A stretch of DNA of 64,000 nt from Rhytidiadelphus loreus (taxonomy: Eukaryota; Streptophyta; Bryopsida; Hypnales; Hylocomiaceae), in contig OX344764.1 of NCBI GenBank assembly GCA_947034895.1, positions 56,091,348 through 56,155,347 on the forward strand, in the 5' to 3' direction. The notes beneath the pieces were generated by a model. That model was not told the origin of the DNA and searched no databases. It was given only the letters and a program-made list of their open reading frames with translations. Position 1 is the stretch's first letter; each line of letters begins with the position of its first letter. Below, one piece after another: positions 22,201 through 40,116 of the stretch. A program made the position numbers and the translations under genes.

Positions 22201-22439
22201 GCCTTTTTTGAGCTTTTTGGAATTTGCTTTAAATTGAACAAAAAGCCAACATTTTGATAAGTTTTAACAATTTTTTTTTAATTGTAATTATATAAATTCA
22301 AACTAGACATGATAGAACCCATATTTAAGTATTTATGGACAAATTGACGAATTATGGACAAATTCATAGTCCATAATGACCTTGAAAATAGAATAATATG
22401 ATTCAAATGATGTAAAAGTGTCGGCTGGCCACCCACACA

Positions 22440-23213
22440 ATGATAAAGAGAATTGCAATACTAACAAAATGCTTTAATGGCAAACAATTCGCTTTGAAAA
22501 GAAACAGTAGTGATTTATTAATTTTGCCGGCTTCAGAATGTGATAGTAGAAGAGACGCCTATAACCGTGCAACCGAAGTCCTGGCGAATCCCAATCAATG
22601 TCTGATGATTCCATCCCGGAACCAAGACATGTATCGGCATTCAGCCGATAAGACAAGGAGGTTAACGATCGCCGCCATTAGTAAAGACAACAGTAATCAT
22701 ACGTGGTCTAAAATTCAGGAATCCTGGAGCGCACTATAGAAAGTAAGTAGGAAATTCGTCCCCAGAGGAGGTTGATATAAATTTATTAATTGAAAAACGA
22801 GACATACATATCCGATGCAACTCCCACATGAAAAGAGCACTTTGAAGACGAATGACAAAAAATATCTTCTACATAATTGCTGTGCTGACGGAAGTATATT
22901 TTGTCGGCGGGCAGCCGATACATATTGTACATATCAAAGTCTATACCGAATAGATTTCAGAATTGAAGCTACAGCCGACATAGTGCCGAAAATGAGAAAA
23001 ACCAATGTGCAGAACCGTGAAATCATCCCGAAAGAAGATTATCCGGTTCATAGAACAAAATGATCAGCATGCAGAGCGGTCAGCTGTATCGGCTGGCAGT
23101 CGACAGATGCATCGGAGTCCCGTATCCGAGAAGCGGAGTGATGATGCTAGACCACCATGACTCGAAAGTGTCGTATCGGCTGGCAGCCGATAGGATAGAG
23201 AAGCGTGGTGGGG
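22440..23213. other. 3' flank of the left gene inside the large element
   Basis: No gene is supported here. The stretch holds four palindromes (22632, 22902, 23087, 23174) and short open frames that merely read through them. Confidence 0.5.
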
Positions 23214-26200
23214 TTAATCATCTCCCTCATCATCTGCATCCTTGTCCACAGTTGCACCTAATGCCTCTAGATTTGCAATCGCAGCAGCAACCGAGGCCTC
23301 CGGGATAACATGAGACGTGGGGGGTCCTTTCTTTGCATGCGAGGGTATTCTATGTGAGTACAGGACAATGTTGACATGAACCATCTGCGGCAGACAGAGT
23401 TCCTTGTGCCACCTCCGAGTCCAGCATTCCCTCGCCACAAGCGCTTTTCCCTCCCTCTTGGCTTTCATTGGAGTCCACCACTCTATCTTGAAATTCCCAT
23501 ACGTTGGTCCTGGAGTCATGTCCACACACTCGAATACCCTACCCAGCCAAACCGGCAGGTAATTGTTTTGACATGGTCGGCAAAGAACAAAGTCCCCTAG
23601 CAGGACATCCCTGAATGGATTGAACGTCAACCTTGGTCTGTCCTTGGCAGGACCGCAGTATGGAGTTGGCTCAGATTCGTCCTCCGGCGTGGTGTCCACT
23701 GGATTATTTGGATCCGCCCCGTCCTGTGTGAAAGCAGTTCCATGATCCCTTGTCCAGTCAGAGAGCGGCCACAATCCCTCTTGAAGCAATGCTGGAGTTT
23801 GTGGCAACGGCGAGTTAATCTCCGATAGAATTCTTTCCCAATAAGCAACGCAACCTGCCATCTCCTCTGCGTATCGCTTGTTTCTTGCCATTCCCGATTT
23901 CCAGAATTCAATGTACTTAGCGATTCCATTTTTGATGAAGGATTGTTTTTCATTGCATTCAGTAGCCCTTACGACTTCTTTCTCTGCATTTCGTCTTCTA
24001 GGATTAATGTCCACATTTCCCCAGAGTGCCTTGAATGGCACCGGTTGTGGGTCCCCCTGTGGAATGTTGGGTCTCCCATCTTTGTCCGCGGTCCACATTT
24101 TGACGGGCGGCCCTGGAGGCAGCCATGATGAGTCCGTGGTCCTTATTTTGTACCTCATGACCGGCCATCCACGATCATCTCCAGCCTCGACGACGTAGAA
24201 TTTGAAGAGGTGTTTGTCTCCAAGCCCGATGATCTTGTTCACCCCATCATGATGGAAGCCCTTGAGGAATGATTTGAAGTCCGCCACTTCCTGCACGAAC
24301 TCCGGAATGAAGGCCACAGTCTTCTGTGAATCCATGAACGCCTTCATGAGATCAGCAAGCACGTAGGTGTTTTTCCTTTTGATTAGTTTCGAGAGATAAC
24401 TGAAGTGCGCGTCGATGTCTTCGTGCGTGTGCCCGACAATGAGAAACCCGACAGTAACTTCTTTGAAAATTCGCTTGGCAGTGAGCAAAGAGCAGAAAGC
24501 CATGAGGAACCTATTTTTATTGTCTTTTGCGGAGTTGTCAAGTTGCAAGAATAGTTTTCTAGGAAGTGGAACATGAGGTCGCCCTGTTTGTGGAGTGTTC
24601 GTAACTTTCCCTGCGGCCTCAGGAACGGAGGAGTTGCACCTCGATTTCCCATGGAGCAGAGCCTCGAAGAAGCTATTCTGTGGCGGAGTGGAGAAGAGTA
24701 TCTTGGATTCCCGAACAGGTGGCCTCTCGAGAGCTCTGAGTACCCTGCACAGCGACGATATAGTGAAATTTGAATCCCCCGGCCAGAGTAATGTGGAGTA
24801 ATGAGCATATGCGCCATCTCCATGTCCATGAGTGAGCATGCCGGTACATGAGATTGGAATCTGCCCTAGCCTAGCGGTGGCTTTGGTTATGCGCTGCATC
24901 CTCGGAATCGCAGTCTTTGTGGTGTCCATTTTGTCATGAATAATGCAGAGGAACTCTCATGGATTTTGCACCGACTGTGTCGTCCATCCACTATATACAT
25001 TTCTACAAGCGCGTTGGTAATTGAGATGTTTCTCTCTGTCCTCGACTAGGGCTTGCCACTCATCGCAACCTCTCGGATACTTCGCAATGAACTCAACTAG
25101 GAAGTCGCATTCTGTGCATTTCGAGAAATTGCTCCCCACAGCCTTGACCTCTACGTTTTTGAAATGTGCTTTCCTGAGGCGACTGATTGCAGACTGCGAT
25201 ACCGGCTTCATATTACATATACCATTGACCTGTTTGACATAACTCGTTGAATAAGTTTCCGAGAGTGGCTAAACAGCTCTATCGGCCGGCAGCCGACAGA
25301 GTTGCAACGGACGGTCGAATAAGAGAAGTGATCTATGACAGAAGCGCATGGAAAGGAATTGGAAGGCAGAAAATGATGGTATCGGCTGGCAGCCGACATG
25401 AGGAGCTATGTATTGAATAAGTAGAGGCAAATAATGAACTTACATAATTAACTTGTTCGCGCATGTGATCCCAATTCATAGCAGAGGGGACGACCTTGAG
25501 GTTGTCTATGCGTTTATTTCCAACCAGTCTAAACTCGTTGGGCATCTGGTCCGCGTTTTCGTTGATGATCGTCATGAGAGTTGCTTGAGCCTGAACTGTT
25601 TGCGGCCTTGGTCTTCGAGCCCCTACATTTCCATGCGATCCGCTAACAGATCCTCCAACGGCCGCAGCCTTGTAGACATGATAGGCCGACCTCGAGACCC
25701 CGTGAATGATATACCAAGCGTTCTCGTAGACGTCTGTGTTTGCAAGAGTAATGAATTTTTTTCCAGGAGTAACACCTGCATGAAGTTGACTCTGCACCGC
25801 ATATGCCATCTCCCTCCTGGTCTCAAATGTGCAAGCAAAGAACTTCCGTCGTATATTTCTGGTGTCCTCCCAGGGAAACGTCTGGCAACATCTGAGCTTG
25901 CAGCACGTTTGCGAGCTGACCTTGCGTATATCCATGTCCGAGGTCTTCAACTGTAGTTTGGACAAGCTTTCGGTATTCCTGGGAATGACCTTTCTGCGCA
26001 CCGACCGGTATGGATTCTTTGGTACTCCCTGCATTCCATTGTCGTCTGACACATTCAAGAGAGCAGCCTCCGAGCATAGCGTGACAATTTCAGAGAGTAG
26101 CCTTCCTCCTTCCAATCTTGCATGTGATAACCTCCAGCGCATGGTTGTCATTTGCAGTGCCTCATTGTCCGATACGAACATGACTCCGACATCCGAATCT

Positions 26201-27378
26201 CCAAGGACGTCATCGTCGCAGGCTTCGTTTGGCAGGCAGACTTGGATAATCGCTCTTCCGAATATCGAGAAGTCGTCATTGAGAAGTTCACAATATTGGT
26301 TTCTCCACAGAGGTCTATCCGGGATTGGTAGCCCGGACTGCAATCCATCCGAGTTACAGCTGATATTTCCACTTCTCATATTTTCCCTAGACGCATCCGC
26401 ATGAACGAAGCTGTCCGCAGCGCTTGTTTCGGACCCGCCCTCGCTGGAGGTACTGTGACCATGAACATTGGGAGGGTCATCTTCGTACCCGCGGCTGTCA
26501 TCGTCCGTGGAGTAGAGCCTATCCTCTCGATCGTCCTCGTCTGATGCATTGTCAGGAATGGGTACTTGAGCCGGCTCTCGAAACTCCTCCGGCGGATCAT
26601 TGGAGCTACCTCCACTTTCGCATTTCGCAAGCAGTTGTGGCTGCATCATACGGGTCTCTGGTGAACCTATCGGCTGGCAGCCGACATTCCTCCTGGACGC
26701 ATTGGAGGTCTCGATCGGTCTGACTTTGTAACCACTCCAGAGTATTCTGTATCCAACACAACATTTGAGTGTCATGAATTTCGGAATTTCGCAGTAGGCA
26801 ATGTGATCCATGAAGTCGTCGACGACCTGCAGTAGTTTGACAACGAGGAAGAAGCTGTGCGGAACGCGGAAGCCTTCCCAGAATCCCTTGGGAGAGCACT
26901 CTACAATTGTTCCCACTCCAGCATATACCAGTTCCGGGCCCACAGTTTGCAGGAGTGCAACATCCATATTCACAGTGAGTGATAGGAATTGTTGAATTGG
27001 TTTTTCATCCTTGTTGACCTGTATCGGCTGCCGGCCGACACGAGCGCATGTAGACTCGTCCGCTTCAGCGTAGGGATAGATGTTGTCTGCCTCTCAGATG
27101 ATTGACCTTCCTAGGCAGTGTTTGAGGAAGACCAAGTCTCCCTCAGGAAACGGAATAGGCATGTCCAAATTTTGTGGAACATCTAGGACATGAACGCGCA
27201 CGAGGTAGGGATCGCGGTTCACCACCCCTTCTACGACCGCCCTTCCAGCGTAATAGAGTCCTTCGAGGGTAAGGGCAACCACTACACCCTTCCCTATTTT
27301 TATTCTCCCGGAGCCACCGTTTTTAGTAAATGCTTCTATAGGACTCACGTCCAAACCCATATCAGCAGATCCACTCAT
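23214..27378 (-). pseudogene. DUF7869-type protein of the large element, two exons, two in-frame TGA codons
   Basis: Exon 1 is 27378-25444 and exon 2 is 25229-23214; the 214-bp intron (25443-25230, GTAAGT...CAG, phase 0) carries palindromes at 25280 and 25380. About 1315 residues. The N-terminal part (about 1-200) is unrecognised. An acidic Ser-rich linker follows, then a Cys-rich block (TCCKLRCC, about residue 495) and a region ending GICNMKPVSQSAISRLRK just after the intron. The DUF7869 core (residues about 790-1000) has LCIIHDKMD, THGHGDG, LDNSAKDNKNR and VGHTHEDIDAHFS. The tail is acidic. The D-N and H-T-H-E-D-I-D motifs suggest a divergent RNase H-like transposase/integrase core (inference). 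TGA at 27094-27096 and 24957-24959 interrupt one continuous frame; both would be CGA before C-to-T change. Palindromes at 26668 and 27022 read in frame as VGCQPI and VGRQPI. More 5' exons are possible. Confidence 0.75.
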
Positions 27379-28702
27379 GACGTAGAATTGGCGACAACGC
27401 CTACAATATCTGTGCTAACCCTTCTCACGGAACTCGAGCCACTTTATCGGCTGGCAGCCGATACATCCGTCTACCAGCTGCTAGACGACTTTCACTATCG
27501 TGGAGGATTCCCTAATGAATCCACGTGGATATGGACTCCACTTCCTATCGGCTGGTAGCCGACAGGAAGTCTTGTACGGATAATAGTAGAACCCTAATCC
27601 GCGCAGACGAAAACATGTGAATCATGGACGTTGCTAGATTTTGAACATGCTGATCTAGGTAGTCTGCATTGAATCCCAGTCTAGACCTGGGCATGTATCT
27701 GGACCACAGATGCGACAGAAAATGCAGAAAATCAGCCAGAACAGAAATTTCTAGCTATGGCCTTGATTAATTCCTGAACTACTTGTGCAACGCACTGCAA
27801 ACTACTGCAATCCCCTGATATGCCTGCATTCTAGAAATCTATTACATTGCTCTGCATTCCAGTGTACACTACTGCATTGCTAGGCATTCCACTCAATCCA
27901 CTGCGAACCACTGCAAACCACTCCAAATCAATTCATAGAAGACCAATGCAAGCCCCCGCAATCCACTTCTCCCTAACGGTTCTTGGACGGTCTGAGTGTG
28001 TGTAAGTGGCAAATGAAGGCGAAAGAATGAAATGCTCTGGAAATTGAACCTAAGAAGGAGGCCAAAGATTGATTTTGGCGCTTGAAATTTGAATCTGGAG
28101 GAGGAGGATGTTGTGGTGATTGCAAAAGAGACAGGTACAACCGTTTGGAGATCGTGGTGGGAAACGTACACATCTCTCTGCAATGAGTGTTCGTTACTTG
28201 GTTGTCCTCGGTTGAAGGTGGAGTACTTGAATTTGGATGCAAAGCCGTGGATGGATGTAATCATTGGATGAATGCATTAGGTTTGTAATGATGGTTCTCC
28301 CGGCTGGCAGCCGTCACTTCAGTGGGGGGGGTATACTCCTCAGGCCACTTTCATTTTCTCTCATTTGCAATCTACTCTCTTGCTCTCTCGTTCTCTTCCT
28401 CTCTCCCACGTTCTCTTCCTCTCTCCCACGTTCTCTTCCTCTCTCCCACGTTCTCTTCCTCTCTCCCACGTTCTCTTCCTCTCTCCCACGTTCTCTTCCT
28501 CTCTCCCACGTTCTCTTTCTCAACGGCTTGCAGCCGACACTGCGTCACAGCAACCGCGTCGATGCATCAGCCGTGGCGTGCTTCCAACCTCAGCCGATAG
28601 GATTTCTTCGGCAGCCGACAGAGGAGGAGTGCAGGCGGGACGGGATTCTGAGCAGCCGACACAATATTCTACCCAGTCGATAAGCAGCTCACTCCTGCGG
28701 CG
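27379..28702. promoter_or_regulatory. Divergent intergenic region between the two gene units of the large element
   Basis: The left gene starts at 27378 (-) and the right at 28703 (+), so this 1.3-kb stretch must contain both promoters. It holds palindromes at 27445, 27546, 28297 and 28521, half-sites at 28590-28680, and a 20-bp minisatellite at 28391-28510. Open frames through the minisatellite are repeat artefacts. No TATA box stood out. Confidence 0.45.
28391..28510. repeat. 20-bp minisatellite, six identical units
   Basis: The unit TTCTCTTCCTCTCTCCCACG is repeated six times without change, followed by a partial unit. It is a pyrimidine-rich tract directly upstream of the palindrome at 28521 and the gene start at 28703. 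Perfect identity implies recent expansion. Confidence 0.95.
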
Positions 28703-31700
28703 ATGGCGTCCTCGGATGTGGTGCCCGAGAGGTACTACACATACCTTGTATCGGCTGGCAGCCGATACAATTCTTCTTGCCTGCTATTTCGATTTGAATT
28801 TCATTCCGGGTTCTTACGTAGTAGTAACTTTATCGGCTGGCAGCCGACATAGTCTGCTGTTCAGGGAGCTCTAGGGTTTCAGAAGAGTCACGGGCAGTGC
28901 GTAGATTGTATCGGTTGGCAGCCGATATCGATTTATATTGGCAGAGTGAGGACATTTCAGGTTCTATCGGCTGGCAGCCGATACAGTCTGCGCATGATTG
29001 ATTTGGGCGTCCTCGAGCGGATTCAATATTATTGAGCGCTAAATTGATGTGTAATATTGTGCAGAAAACCGACCCTCTTGGCAAGACTTCTCGGACCTCA
29101 AATCCCGAACTCCGAGATATTAGGCGACGGGTTCCCACCATGCGCAACGTGGAGAGCAAGCGATGCCATCCAAGAGTGGGTCCTGTGCTGGAGGGAGTCG
29201 TTTGACAGACTTGTGGAGATTGCGTGTTCCTTCAAGTTGAAGGGGAACATGACCCCCGGGAAGGGAAATGTTATGTCAGTCATGGCTGTTGGAGTAGACG
29301 TGCACGTCATGATTTGTCTTCTCCCAGTTGGCAACCCAGATGGCGTGGCCGACTACATCGCGGTGGAGTTGCTTGTCCAGAAGTGCACGGAAGATATCTG
29401 TGGAGCGAGGTCTATGTTGCTAGGCATGACTTTTGTCGACAACACACCAGAAGATGCTGATGAACATGTGTTGGGATGGGAATGCCTCAAGCATGAGCGG
29501 GATGAACATAATGCCCGCGTCATCCTCGAGATGGAGAAGGGGAAGAAGAAGGTGACGGCCCCTCGGAGGAAGCCATCGACGCCCACGGTTGACCACCCTG
29601 AGAATGAAGCTGCGGACACGGGGTCGCCAAGCAAACCGAAGAGGAAAGGGAAGGGGAAGGACGATCCCAACAGGGTGTTGACGCTATCGCTTGACGAGGC
29701 ATTGGTGCTAGGAAACCATCTGACTACCAAGACCAAGGACAATGAGGTGAACGCGATCTACCAAGCGCTGGAAAAGGACTGCTGCACGCCTTCCCATACA
29801 AGAAGCAGCGACTTCCGGATGTCATCCCCTCTGAGAAGCTGCACATTGCACCAGATGAGCTGAAGTACAGGAAAATTGCAAAGGATCGCCTTGGTCAGGT
29901 ATTTGACATTCGTTTCCCTTCATTCCGCATACACCAATCCCTATGCGTTTCTATGTTCTATCGGCTGCCAGCCGACAGATCACGAATGTTAATAAATTTT
30001 TGGACCTAGTGATTTTAGGTCAGGACCATGTACAAGGGGTATGGATCAATTCGGAAGAAACCTGAAATTCACAGCATTCCACTAAAGCGCGCGCCTTTAC
30101 CAACGGATAAGGGATTGGATGCGGTCATGGACAGGTGTCCAGCACAGAATGATGTGGTGGTCATTGACGAAATTCCAATGCCGTGGTGGAAGGCACCCAA
30201 CGTTCACTGGTACATCATTGGCGGGCAGCATACAGTCACTGCTTGCAGGGAACTGGCAGACCAATACCCCGAAGGATCGGAAGCCAGGAAGGATCTCCTG
30301 GAGTTCGAGGTCATTCCAGTCTTTAGTAGACAGGCGGACACACTCGTCCGGGTGTCCAACGCCTTGAACCTGAACATCGCCGAAAAGGTGGCGAAGGAGA
30401 CCTTCCGATCCTGTGCGGAGATGGGGAGGGCTGCCTGGGTGAAGGCAGGATGTCCGGAGCCGCATCGTAGAGGTAGCAAGCCGTCACCAGCGTTCGAGGT
30501 ATTCATCAAGCATCTCTTGTAATGTCTATCACTTTGCCTTATGTCTGGACGTGCTATTATATCGGCTGCCAGCCGATACAATAGCAGATTGTGTAGCCAG
30601 TATTGTTGTTATCGGCTGGCAGCCGATACCAACTATTGTGTTCTTATTTTTGGGTGCGAAATCTTGTAGGCTGCGAAGCTTCAAGTTATGGCGCACTTCG
30701 TGGATGAGAAAGTATCCTCAAAGTTGCCGCTCATCTTCATCAAGGAGAGTACATGGGTACTCTGGACAGAGGCGTTCGATGCTTGGGAGAATGGAGAACT
30801 CATTGGGGATGATGGGACAGTTCCGAATCTCATTGTCAATCGAAAACCCCTCACGCACATCACGAAAACGGATCTCATGCCAACGCTGGGGCTGCGAGAC
30901 TCAGACCTCTGCGAACTAGTCAGGGATATCGTTGCCCTACGCGTCAGCATCAAGAACACTACCAAGGCGAAGTCGTCCGGGAAGATGACACTCTTTGACT
31001 GGTGCAGAGAGAAAAAGATGGACAGGGTGGTCATGAACGAAATTATGTGGACCAGGAAGAAGTATCCCCTTCCTTGCAAAGACGCAGCTTGGGTCCCATA
31101 TACTGATGAACACTGGCAGGAGCTGGCTGACAAGGAGGGCTACTCTGCTGCCGTTGTTCGGAATGTCTGGAAGGATGTCATGAAATTCACGGATGGAAGC
31201 AACTGGTTGAAAGGGCGAGTCAACCCCATGAATCCGACAACGGACAAGAGCGTCAATGGGAAAGCGCCGGGGGTCTTCTACACAACTTTCATGAACTACG
31301 CCACAATGTCAGTGGCACCGGTGGAGGAAGGAATGTCAAATGACCTGAGATACGAATGTCGGCTAGGGTAGACTATCGCGGAGGTGGTGGACGTGCTTCG
31401 AACAAGGAAGGAGAATGAGGGGCTGCAAGTGGACGACAAGAAGTTCATTATTCTCTTTGGATACAACGATAGTGGGGAAGCCCTAGCGGTGTCGAAAAAC
31501 GATTTCCTCGAAGTATCCTTGGCAGCTGAAATACCCGCAGAAGACGATGGGACAGACAGACCGTCGAACGACGCCTACATTCCCCTCCCAATGCTTTTCA
31601 TCGGGAACTCACGCTTCCGGGATTTTGTCGCGTCGGCATCGTATTCCTCAACAGCATCGTGGTACTACCACACCGTGTACTATCAACCGTCAGCTCGTGG

Positions 31701-34047
31701 CGGCTTCCTTAGGGCGGAAATAGAGGCCAGGCCGATGGTCACACTATCCATCACCTTCCCCAAGCCGGAGGACAGGGCCTCCCTCTTTCCGGTGTTCAAA
31801 AGGTTCACCGGGATCTCCAAGGCGCCGGAATGGTTTCAGGTCGACGTCGAGGGAGAGGTAGACTGGAATGGCGGAATGTGCGGGGTCGGACATGGGCTTC
31901 TCGAGCAACTGATGAAGCCCACGTTGAAAGCGAAGGAGGCCACCGTTATCAACATCTGGGGAGGGGGAAACATCACGGAGATCGCTCTGGTAAGTCACTC
32001 CACCCTCATCTCAAAAGGAATTCACATCATTCATGCCATTCGTTTGTGTCGGCTGGCAGCCGATACGTCGTCTCTGATTCAAGTACTGTGGGTAAGCAGA
32101 GGAATGAACGAACAGTCTTAGAGTTCGTTAGGGAGGAGGACGGAGTAGCGAGGGCGAAAGAGCGCGTGAAGGGAATGAACCTCGTTTCTGCTCCCAGTGT
32201 GTTACCGCAGTCGGGGACTGCTGGAGGACCGAATCTGGAGGCCCCGACGCATACATCCACTACACAGCAGCCACCACCAATATCATCACCAGTGTTGCAG
32301 CAGAATCCGAGAGGCTCTGCTGGTCCATCACGGTCTGCGCTGCTAATGCCCGAAGCACGCATGCGGGAGAGCTCTCCAATTAGGATATTCTCGTCGGACT
32401 CGGAAAGTGAACTCTCCCCTGGAGAGGCTCTCGTTCGCAGGGAACGACAACCACAATCGACGATCCCAAATCAGTCGTCGACGCCGGACCCCGTGGAGTT
32501 GCAACAGTTATCGGCGCACACTACAGTGGAATCTGCCGGGTTGAGTAGACAGGCCTGCAGTGCCACCTCTGACGCCATGGTCGTCAATCTGCATGATGTT
32601 CCTCCATCAGAGGAGGTCCTCAGGCTGGACGATACCCTCCCGGAAGACAATGCGAGTGAGCCTCAGGAACCACTCACTGCCATAGGGATTCCGGCAACAA
32701 GGATGGATGTTGCTGTCGGCGGGCAGCCGATACATCAAGATGTCGGCAGGCAGCCGATACCTCAGGATGCTCCGCAGGTTGAACTCAGAAGGGGAAGGAG
32801 CAGAGGAGTCACGAGCAAACACACATCGGGTTCAATCGACTCGTCCCACTCAACGCCATCCGGACAGAAACGGACGCGACAAGATATGGAGCTAGACGAA
32901 GGCGGGCCATCACAAGACCACGACTTCCCGAATGAGGCACTGTCTCCCGGACCATCGTCTAAGCGGATGCGGACTAGAGGTTCGTAGGCGATAGACATCT
33001 TAGTATAGCTCATTTACATGTAGTGATGACTGGCTCAGACTTGATCGTAGGGACCTGTCAATGGGAGCCTGTACTTGGATAGACTAGAGTACTCAAGTAG
33101 TGTGTCGGCTGCCAGCCGATACGTTCTACTACTGTTGTCCAATTCCGCTCTAAGTTGCATCTCATGTTTTATGTATTTCATCTTGCATTGCAGATGAAAT
33201 ATCTCAACCGTCTGAGGCAACCGAGGACACAGTGTCTGAAGGAAGGGATGAGTGTGAACAACCGCCTCTCGAATCGAGAGCAAATCCGTCCATTTATAAT
33301 CCTCCACAGGTAGCGACTTCGAGATTGTTCCTCTTCTTAGAGGTGCAAGGAACACTGCTGCACTATGAGCCTTGCATTTTGAAGGGGGCAAACTTGCACC
33401 AGAGATCGCACGTTAGAGATCGACCGGGGCTCCCGCAGTTCCTCAGATTTTGTCAGAGTCAAGACATCATGATCATCTACTGGTCGGTCTTACCCTTACA
33501 GACTCTAAAGCAGAGACTCCACAATTTGAAGTATAAAGTACCGGAGATCGGAGAGGATTTCCTTGCCTTTGGGCAGGAGTCGTGTGACGAGTCTGTGTAC
33601 AGAGATCCTAACAATCAGTCACGAACAATTTTCCTAAAACGTCTTGCACGACTTCTCGGGTCATCCCCCTTGCTGTACAATAGTGGTGCCTCGATCAGCA
33701 ACTCACTGATCGTGGATCACGCACCATTTACTAACGTCCTCAACCTGCCATACAACGCCATTCATCCGCCTCCTTGTACAATGTACTCGGAGAAATCGAA
33801 GAAGGGTGGAAAGCTGCCCTTCCTACAAGCCTCAATGATACCGTTCCTAGAACGGTTCTTCTCGTCGGATTTGACGGTACCAGAATTCTGTGAGAGAAAC
33901 TCGGACATCGGACTTCCGCGATATATGCCAGGATCCACCTTGCATGATCTCTACGTTAGAGTCACACCCAAGTATCAAAAGGGATTCGAGGTCCCCTATT
34001 CGGAGGAAGAGCTACATGCCATGGGAGGTAGCATGGTGGTCGACTAG
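28703..34047 (+). pseudogene. ParB-like / methyltransferase-like / HAD-like multidomain protein of the large element, six exons
   Basis: Exons 28703-28731, 29065-29898, 30019-30498, 30670-31989, 32100-32979 and 33194-34047 join in phase (GT-AG introns of 333, 120, 171, 110 and 214 bp), giving about 1465 residues. Residues 1-288 are unrecognised with a Lys-rich NLS-like stretch. At about 300-448 lies a ParB/Srx-like domain: YIIGGQHTVTA in place of the G-E-R-R box, then IPVFSR and NALNLNIAE. At about 450-920 lies a domain whose end (VINIWGGGNITEIA, then LEF and ARAKERV) resembles the FxGxG, acidic and final helix of N6/N4 amino-DNA methyltransferases. ParB-methylase fusions are known in phages and bacteria. 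Residues about 890-1180 are Ser/Pro-rich and disordered. The C-terminus is an FCP1/NIF-like HAD domain without the catalytic Asp (FLEVQGTLL). TAG at 31369-31371 and a one-base loss in the A-run near 29770 break this copy. Confidence 0.7.
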
Positions 34048-34573
34048 TTGGAGGAGGCAGGATGATGTATCGGCTGCCAGCCGACATGCATTGTGTACAT
34101 TCTGTAGATTGTTTATGTGCACTGTAGATATAGCGGAAATATTCTAGTTCGTAGAAATTTTGTAATCATTTTGTATGTTTCATGTTCATTTAATTGTAAA
34201 TAAAGGCTGTACAGGCTGGGTGTCCGGCTTTAAAAGGCGGATGTCAATTTCGCTCTCGAAGCATTCAAATGTTTCCTTCGAGAGTTTGATCGGTTGGGCA
34301 TGGTCACTATAATCATGATGATTGTGGCCCTCTTAACTCTCGAGGGTTGCGTTTCAATACTTCGAGAGCAATATTGGCTCTGCCATTTGAGGCCGGGATT
34401 TTCCCATCTTCATTCGATAACAAGCGTCTTGCTCCGGCTCACTCTGTGCACTCATAATGGATTGCTTTCTCTTGTACTCTGGGTCGGTCATGTGTATCGA
34501 CTGCCAGCCGACATCACATGGACTTGGCTCCCTTGTTCTCTTACCCATTTCTTATAATCTCTCTTCTATTCAG
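34048..34573. other. Spacer between the two HAD-like genes
   Basis: It contains palindromes at 34068 and 34495. A start for the next gene may lie at 34457, with an intron holding the 34495 palindrome and ending at the AG before 34574, but the donor is weak and not certain. An AATAAA-like AAATAAAG at about 34197 could belong to the 3' end of the upstream gene. Confidence 0.4.
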
Positions 34574-35224
34574 GAGTCCAACAATGGGCAGCCACATTTG
34601 TTCAAAAAATGTGTTGTACTCGGCGTCACGAGTTTGCTTTGTTTTATCGACACAAATATCGAGGTCGATAATTGGGATCCACACAAGAACGTCATCAAAA
34701 GACCGGGACTAATTGCATTGTTCGCGACATTGTTTGAAAAGTTCAACGTTGGAATTTGGTCAAGGATGCCAATTACAGAACTTAGACCATTGCTTGCGCA
34801 CTTGCTTCCAAAACATGTTAGAGACAAACTAGCATTTGTATATGGCAGAGAATATTGTGTAGATAGCAAGAAATTCCCATGGTGCTACAAAATGATATCA
34901 ACACTCTTCAATAAGAGACCTTCCAAGGATATTTGTTCACTGGACCAGGTGCTCATGGTGGACGTATGCCCACTCTCGCTGAGGAGGACACCGGATCCGG
35001 CGTGCTACATTCCGCTGCCATTTATGGGGGACCTAAATTTCCCAAATGACAGTAGAGTCATTCCTAACATTTCCACGGATATTATTCCCTTCATTTTTCC
35101 AATGCACGAGCATGAGTCGGTCTCGGAATACGTGAATGGCGCAAAAAGACCGGGACAATTACACTATGAAGTTGCTCAGTCAATCAAGTATGGGAACCCA
35201 AATTGGAAGGGAATTTTTTGGTGA
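34574..35224 (+). CDS. Second FCP1/NIF-like (HAD) protein, catalytically degenerate, 5' end uncertain
   Basis: The open exon follows a good acceptor (CTATTCAG at 34573) and encodes about 216 residues to TGA at 35222-35224. It aligns by eye with the NIF phosphatase pattern: hydrophobic strand (GVTSLLCFIDTNIEV), IKRPGLIALFATLFEKFNVGIWSRMP, a helical cap, and LDQVLMVDVCPLS near the second acidic motif. The nucleophile Asp of DxDxT is replaced (FIDTN), so activity is unlikely. It repeats the C-terminal domain of the upstream gene without obvious recent duplication, so the two may pair. An unspliced in-frame start exists at 34457. Confidence 0.55.
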   Translation, partial: ESNNGQPHLFKKCVVLGVTSLLCFIDTNIEVDNWDPHKNVIKRPGLIALFATLFEKFNVGIWSRMPITELRPLLAHLLPKHVRDKLAFVYGREYCVDSKKFPWCYKMISTLFNKRPSKDICSLDQVLMVDVCPLSLRRTPDPACYIPLPFMGDLNFPNDSRVIPNISTDIIPFIFPMHEHESVSEYVNGAKRPGQLHYEVAQSIKYGNPNWKGIFW

Positions 35225-35268
35225 AGTAATATATGTCGTATCAGCAGCCAGCCGATATCACTATGCAG

Positions 35269-35439
35269 TGGAATCGAGGGATTTACAATGACTTGTACAA
35301 GCCTACAGCCTTCTCCACATTCAAGGCTTTGGAGGACTCGTTTCTCGAATTCATCGCCTCTCTTCATAAGGATATCGGCTGCCAGCTGATACTCAAAATT
35401 GAAGACATTGGACCGGATGCACTCAATGCTTTAGAATGA
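35269..35439 (+). CDS. Possible last exon or small separate frame after the second HAD-like gene
   Basis: After an AG acceptor at 35268 an open frame of 56 codons runs to TGA at 35437-35439 and reads WNRGIYNDLYKPTAFSTFKA at its start. The palindrome at 35373 is translated in frame (DIGCQLIL). The splice phase does not match the donor at 35221 (GTGAAG), so it is either a separate frame or joined in a way I could not resolve. Confidence 0.3.
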   Translation, partial: WNRGIYNDLYKPTAFSTFKALEDSFLEFIASLHKDIGCQLILKIEDIGPDALNALE

Positions 35440-36108
35440 TGTGTAGTGGTTTTCATAGTCACACCTTTAGACATCTTGGTAGTTTGGCTTGCTGTATAGT
35501 ATCGGACGCCAGCCGACACTTAGAAGAGAATTAGGGATATTTTGTAGGAACTTCTGTAAGTTGGTGTTTCATTGGATTATATACTTATTCTGAAATGACC
35601 TACTGCGTCCATTCTCAATCGTGAATTATCGCACATGTTTTGCACTCTACTTTATCGGCTGACGCCCGATTTATTTCTGGACTATGGATTTGTCCATAAT
35701 TAGTTAAATATCAGTTATAGAGATCACATGGTCAAAGAAAATACAACAATATCACTTATGGATTGAAAGATTATAATGTTTGATCATGAGAGTGTTAAAA
35801 TTGTGAAAATGATTTGAAGTCTTTCAATCCTCTTTTCACATGCCAAATCTAAAAAATTGGTCATCCAAAAAATATGAGGTCAGAGGGCATAACATGCATG
35901 AATCCAATCAATTTATAAATAATGTGATTTTTTCTCCAAGATCTAGTGCATTTGAGGCTCATTTTCAAGAGCCCTCAATATTAGAAAATCAAGATTTGCA
36001 ATGCTAAAATTGGACTGTAAAATTTATTTTTTCAAAAATATAAACTACTAAAAATAGTAACTTGGTTAAGTTTTATTAAACAATATAGTCAACATTAGAA
36101 TTTGGTGC

Positions 36109-39714: not shown

Positions 39715-40116
39715 CTAAGCTTTCTCCCTCCTGAGCTTTCCGAGTTCTCTACGAACAATGGAACTCCTCTTGACACGGGCCACCATAACCTTGAAGCGGT
39801 CGAAGTCGTTCAAACTGGCCCGCTTCGCCCGCACAGCAAGCTTGCGCCCCCAGGCGCTGTTCTCCCACTTGCTGTACACTTCACCCTTCTCAATAGCCTC
39901 CTTGAGCGTCTTCTTGTTCGGCATCCTGGGAATTTCAATCACAATATCGGTGAGAGATAAACGCTTGAAGTTAATCTGCGTCCGGACCATGTCAGGGGAA
40001 TCGATGAGTGCCCTGTTTTGGTCAATCACGTCCACAATTACGACCAGCTTGCCATACTGAGGCCCGTAATTGATCAGAGCAACGCGCCCGATCTCGACAA
40101 ACCTGCGGAACACCAT
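39715..40116 (-). CDS. RPL14: Cytosolic large-subunit ribosomal protein eL14
   Basis: One uninterrupted frame of 133 codons from ATG at 40116 to TAG at 39715. The product follows the plant eL14 pattern from end to end: [54 protein letters not shown], the [20 protein letters not shown] segment and a basic C-terminal helix ending RREKA. Length is normal for plants. It binds rRNA on the 60S subunit. The coding part has no intron, yet a telo-box lies 109 bp upstream as in many ribosomal protein genes, so it looks like a working gene rather than a dead retrocopy. Start choice is the only Met that gives the conserved N-terminus. Confidence 0.95.

Follow-up and report, generated by a model that had tools for sequence, protein, structure and literature searches.

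Recognition sites that are spread through a transposon and serve its own regulator are known in few cases, the clearest being the VANDAL/VANC system of Arabidopsis. VANC21 is described as binding a short motif that its own transposon family carries in introns, in intergenic DNA, and in the non-coding DNA of the termini (PMC5735166), and as removing methylation from the whole transposon copy (PMC5735166; PMC10398659). In the same descriptions, the motifs of VANDAL21 and VANDAL6 are family-specific and rare elsewhere, and related families use altered motifs (PMC5735166; PMC10398659). The VANC motifs are reported to be arrayed in tandem with a single orientation (PMC5735166). In this study, we analyzed a 64-kb stretch of DNA from contig OX344764.1 of Rhytidiadelphus loreus (64,000 nucleotides; the window), in which a complete DNA transposon of 13,401 bp (22316..35716) carries dispersed copies of a 19-bp palindrome. 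As in VANDAL21, the motif is specific to the family and concentrated in non-coding parts: on the predicted gene map, 26 of its 30 sites in this element are non-coding, and all ten non-coding gaps are occupied.

The palindrome, TATCGGCTGNCAGCCGATA, consists of two inverted CAGCCGAYA half-sites with 1 base between them. A pattern scan that tolerated up to 3 mismatches gave 27 matches in the window (span 22632-35671), and 0.00 were expected from 100 dinucleotide-preserving shuffles. When up to 5 mismatches were allowed, 30 matches were found, 30/30 within the transposon, and the remaining 50.6 kb of the window contained none at this threshold. Six copies were perfect. The half-site occurred 27 times on the + strand and 19 times on the - strand, and all 46 occurrences lay within the transposon. 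These counts agree with a sequence-only reading of the window, which had noticed about thirty copies, six of them perfect, confined to the element. The limits it gave, 22421-35670, fall inside the transposon, about 100 bp from its left end and about 46 bp from its right end. That reading had also proposed a genome-wide count as a check. With up to 2 mismatches allowed, the palindrome was found at 1,503 places in the 407-Mb genome, whereas the backwards-read palindrome, used as a control at the same threshold, was found at 0 places. DNA was fetched for 47 perfect places among 50 listed (C1 and part of C2), and in 47/47 the flank was homologous to another copy of the transposon family. A site-to-site comparison showed that homology between the palindromes ends at the 19 bp.

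The sites are distributed along the whole element (mismatches are given in brackets). In the left non-coding part they lie at 22419..22437 (5; left terminal), 22632..22650 (2), 22902..22920 (2), 23087..23105 (2), and 23174..23192 (perfect). The gene 1 intron has two, at 25280..25298 (2) and 25380..25398 (1). Between genes 1 and 2, they were found at 27445..27463 (perfect), 27546..27564 (2), 28298..28316 (4), and 28521..28539 (4). The first intron of gene 2 has four, at 28749..28767 (perfect), 28831..28849 (1), 28909..28927 (1), and 28965..28983 (perfect), and its later introns have sites at 29959..29977 (1), 30560..30578 (perfect), 30610..30628 (perfect), and 32047..32065 (1). Farther right, sites occur between genes 2 and 3 at 33103..33121 (1), between genes 3 and 4 at 34068..34086 (1), and upstream of gene 4 at 34495..34513 (2). 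The right non-coding part holds 35239..35257 (2), 35373..35391 (1), 35500..35518 (3), and 35653..35671 (3), the last being 45 bp from the right end. Coding sites were 26668..26686 (1), 27022..27040 (2), and two that form a 27-bp tandem repeat, 32714..32732 (2) and 32741..32759 (2). On the inferred gene map, coding sequence makes up 67.4% of the transposon, yet only 4/30 sites are coding (binomial P 1.4e-9). Each of the non-coding gaps of at least 60 bp (10/10) had at least one site, an outcome with a 4.7% chance for 26 sites placed randomly over the gaps. The gene map was derived from the codon phase of the positions at which the window copy differs from two diverged copies. The exon limits were read from this phase together with splice-like ends, so that the gene models are predictions. 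Directly upstream of gene 2, at 28531-28661, four single CAGCCGAYA half-sites stand in one orientation (28531, 28591, 28612, and 28653), and a 20-bp tandem repeat (28389-28521) adjoins this cluster.

We compared the sites with those of other copies, which share ancestry, so that counts pooled over copies are not independent. Between the window and the copy C1_66.845M, whose gene 1 protein is 86% identical, the motif differed at 54/490 positions (11%), whereas the 40-bp flanks on each side differed at 854/1,882 (45%). With at most 4 mismatches, 22/26 non-coding sites were retained in C1_66.845M, compared with 240/3,269 control windows, and 10/16 in the left part of C2_44.497M, compared with 166/2,175; gapped windows were scored as failures in these counts. 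The mismatches of motif and flank were 69/473 and 456/1,952 in C1_8.006M, 99/513 and 539/2,122 in C1_16.683M, and 140/491 and 900/1,953 in C2_44.497M, and these totals mix homologous and non-homologous stretches because the three copies lack parts of the element. Copy alignments placed the palindromes at orthologous positions in diverged subfamilies. The half-site CAGCCGAYA was common to three subfamilies, in which position 8 was C in 30%, 36%, and 40% and otherwise T. At the equivalent of window position 32047, C1_66.845M has two palindromes 47 bp apart, compared with one in the window, and the alignment shows a 50-bp insertion there. We read this alignment as a probable gain of a site by local duplication.

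Predicted proteins of other contigs that read through introns also contained peptides coded by the motif. There were 19 matches in 16/220 proteins, whereas the 220 reversed proteins gave 0 and shuffles gave no more than 0.025 for any pattern. RLPAD, G[WCR]QPI, and SA[GADN]SRY, which correspond to the three frames of the palindrome, were found in intron stretches of P0001, P0099, P0101-P0103, P0106, P0110, P0161, and P0180. YR[RQ][ST]AD, which fits TATCGGC-N5-GCCGATA, was found in P0016, P0020, P0021, P0027, P0046, P0134, and P0139. The more distant of the intron-reading proteins were P0099, P0106, P0110, P0134, P0139, P0161, and P0180. In the source genome, a decayed copy with 62% identity (L045) had no intact palindrome. 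When C-to-T and G-to-A changes were counted half, a scoring chosen after a first look, 9 palindrome matches were found in this copy compared with 0.07 in 60 shuffles.

The confinement of the palindrome, its conservation against diverged flanks, its non-coding placement, and half-sites that vary largely independently of each other support the suggestion of the sequence-only reading that it is a binding site belonging to this system. On the basis of sequence and of analogy with VANC, we see about an even chance that the palindromes are operator-like putative binding sites for an element-encoded, anti-silencing protein. Protein binding, the origin of the protein from the element, and the anti-silencing outcome are what we infer here. 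A dimeric DNA-binding protein would read the two inverted CAGCCGAYA half-sites. The element itself would most likely encode this protein, either in gene 2, the main candidate for the putative binder, or in the part of gene 1 that codes for the N-terminal half of its product. With sites in every intron and intergenic gap, the whole 13-kb element would be tagged and host genes would not. The factor may bind the non-coding parts and open the chromatin of the entire copy; most likely, silencing would be relieved in a sequence-specific manner or the genes of the element would be activated. The long palindrome would offer a specific address to which chromatin changes could be directed. Since the anatomy fits the logic of VANC, yet the length and palindromic form of the motif, its mostly single occurrence, the transposase, and the target duplication are different, the element may work like VANDAL/VANC without belonging to it.

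Several observations weigh against an anti-silencing operator. VANC motifs are given as 8-9 bp, tandem, and in one orientation (PMC5735166; PMC10398659), whereas the motif in the window is a 19-bp palindrome that is mostly single and dispersed; tandem arrays of the VANC kind were not found apart from the one local half-site cluster at 28531-28661 and the one 27-bp tandem pair. A Pfam scan of ten open reading frames (ORFs), in which the interrupted gene 2 was scanned piecewise, recognized no DNA-binding domain. In the six close copies (95-98% identity), motif and flank diverged alike, for example at 18/570 compared with 57/2,392 positions; this would fit neutral decay after insertion, as expected. 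The peptide patterns behind the 19 protein matches had been widened after the first hits were seen. Moreover, proteins at 82-83% identity may stem from the source species or a near one, because subfamilies in the source genome are equally far apart.

The methylation signature of the copies bears on the same point. Derived transitions in the close copies, polarized by two outgroup copies over 27300-35700, were found at 137/4,197 CG, 137/3,998 CHG, 151/15,372 CHH, and 36/25,102 A/T positions. This is the pattern expected as a trace of dense CG and CHG methylation in the copies. As read from the sequence, all motif cytosines except the centre base are in a CG or CHG context. In silent copies, motif cytosines did not differ from other non-coding cytosines at CG (23/834 and 65/1,931; P 0.48) or CHG (44/1,157 and 78/1,909; P 0.78). 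Because the motif cytosines decay as fast as the others, there was no sign of motif protection in the silent copies.

A wider reading, which we hold tentatively and with somewhat less than even confidence, is that these elements form an ancient family of plant transposons, not related to VANDAL, that operates a recognition network of its own. The 19-bp palindrome, retained in each intron and gap, would be read by a dimer that the element encodes; in both arms the outer seven bases would be fixed across species, and the inner bases would have drifted in concert with the protein in a single lineage (YRRSAD/YRQTAD instead of YRLPAD). If true, sequence-specific self-recognition against host silencing would have had an independent origin. 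If a bryophyte-type genome thus provided a second case, different in structure and conserved much more deeply, self-tagging of plant transposons against silencing would have evolved more than once.

The sites may instead be bound by the transposase for synapsis and excision, like the subterminal repeats of other cut-and-paste transposons, but spread throughout the element. The examined perfect sites all lay in copies of this transposon, the transposase gene is its best conserved gene, and the degenerate sites near the ends (22419 and 35653) are kept in C1_66.845M. However, the sites do not cluster at the ends, and those nearest the ends match the motif least well (5 and 3 mismatches). Moreover, every intron has a site, which excision would not need. 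We regard this explanation as unlikely. TnpA of En/Spm (CACTA) is an element-encoded regulator whose sites crowd the subterminal regions. The transposon in the window is similar in its repeated short motif and in its putative element-encoded regulator, whereas its sites lie along the whole element.

It is more doubtful that the sites belong to a host transcription factor, such as an AP2/ERF protein, exploited for expression of the element. GCCGAC is the core of the dehydration-responsive element, and the C form of the half-site includes it; the one-orientation half-sites upstream of gene 2 (28531-28661) would also suit such a factor. However, 57-69% of half-sites have T rather than C at that base, and introns and 3' regions are marked as much as promoters. 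Host sites would also be expected in host DNA, yet all the examined perfect sites were within the family.

We also analyzed whether variants of the palindrome preserve base pairing, since the sequence-only reading had offered an RNA hairpin as a second possibility. Such a hairpin would act within intronic and untranslated portions of the element transcripts, and perfect palindromes would fold. In the window copy, variant pairs were 14 G-U and 22 broken, and pair 8, with all copies pooled, was 14 G-U and 73 broken; the pair counts leave out sites between the genes. Pair 2 in the gene 1 half (sense strand; copies pooled) was 44 G-U and 9 broken, and this was the sole result pointing away from a DNA dimer site. 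In the other half, pair 2 was 35 G-U and 49 broken. C1_66.845M had 18 G-U and 16 broken pairs. Since pair-breaking variants are as common as G-U variants, the hairpin is not supported overall, and its loop would be only 1-3 bases. A DNA site read by a dimer appears to fit these variants better, and we consider an RNA hairpin very unlikely.

Gene 2 could also encode a clamp like ParB or KorB that loads at the palindromes and spreads along the element. The bacterial ParB-parS and KorB-operator systems have dispersed palindromic sites, and KorB acts via such sites, so that the arrangement in the transposon would fit its mode of action. By eye, the gene 2 exon 30019-30504, which had 138 relatives at E ≤0.01, shares with these relatives a pattern like the ParB N-domain (YIVGGQHTxxAC beside YDIVAGERRFRAA). 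However, this likeness had no statistical support: the profile comparison did not reach significance (P 0.46, compared with 0.37 for reversed ParB and 0.72 for an unrelated profile). Sequence searches of this exon in Pfam, NCBIfam, and PDB gave no match worth the name, ParB included. The domain model of gene 2 was poor, and fold searches on it gave no match. We assign such a clamp very little probability. A tiny mobile palindromic unit like a miniature inverted-repeat transposable element, multiplied inside the element, was the third suggestion of the sequence-only reading and is hardly credible: despite many near-identical palindromic copies and two sites that can stand about 50 bp apart as if duplicated, the positions are the same in diverged subfamilies, which already refutes recent mobility, no examined perfect site lies beyond the family, and no homology extends past the 19 bp.

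The transposon itself was defined by terminal repeats, a 4-bp target duplication, and copies with 95-98% identity over the same span. The target duplication ATAG lies at 22312..22315 on the left and 35717..35720 on the right. The left terminal region with the inverted repeat (22316..22373, + strand) and the right terminal inverted repeat (35678..35716, - strand) have AATTATGGACAAATYCATAGTCCA in common. The 4-bp duplication was exact in 6/8 copies with both flanks seen and 1 base off in C1_47.453M and C1_13.138M. BLAST showed six copies at 95-98% identity, the sixth being C4_27.423M, which aligns at 98%, and others at 87%, 76-79%, and 71% over the aligning parts. When up to 3 mismatches were allowed, the terminal repeat occurred at 197 places genome-wide. 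Inside it is an imperfect palindrome, TATGGAC...GTCCATA (22350-22376 and 35678-35701), which is unlike the internal motif. Terminal repeats facing each other 42-58 kb apart were observed at C2:69576156-69633739, C4:56541120-56590975, C5:31008744-31063812, C5:32588943-32640392, and C4:59150237-59192217. Nested insertions may have enlarged the elements at these places, or the pairs may belong to giant relatives that carry cargo.

A 4-bp target duplication is described for Sola2 (PMC3627910), and Sola1 is listed for Physcomitrella (PMC9033089). The likeness to the Sola superfamily is one of duplication length and moss listing, and the passages on Sola in these two sources do not mention dispersed internal palindromes. 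The transposon also differs from VANDAL in its DUF7869 transposase, 4-bp target duplication, and clear terminal repeats. None of the VANC-type domains (DUF1985/DUF287, MULE transposase) was among the Pfam hits of the ten ORFs, with gene 2 again scanned in pieces.

Gene 1 is on the - strand. Its first exon (approximately 25431..27390) was located by tblastn of moss proteins and by codon phase, and its second exon (approximately 23214..25215) encodes the DUF7869 domain of the candidate transposase (E 1.5e-41). Named relatives come from the mosses Ceratodon and Physcomitrium, with 67-70% identity over about half of the query, and more distant ones from the liverwort Riccia. Gene 1 had at least 79 matches in the genome, the majority with in-frame stops. 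Gene 2 (28702..32987, + strand) has several exons, at about 28702-28748, 29065-29905, 30003-30503, 30690-31992, and 32095-32987. A frameshift and a premature stop interrupt it in the window copy (29065-31992), and several other copies do not have them. Codon phase also supported genes 3 and 4, both on the + strand. Gene 3 (33216..34047) has a weak match to NIF/HAD phosphatases (E 0.0015, below the Pfam cut-off), and gene 4 (34576..35224) is NIF/HAD phosphatase-like (E 2.5e-6, above the cut-off). In both, the DxDxT motif, which we take to be usual for NIF/HAD phosphatases, looks altered, and their products are perhaps inactive phosphatase folds. About 4 kb from the transposon, a minus-strand ORF at 39715-40116 resembles, by eye, ribosomal protein eL14.

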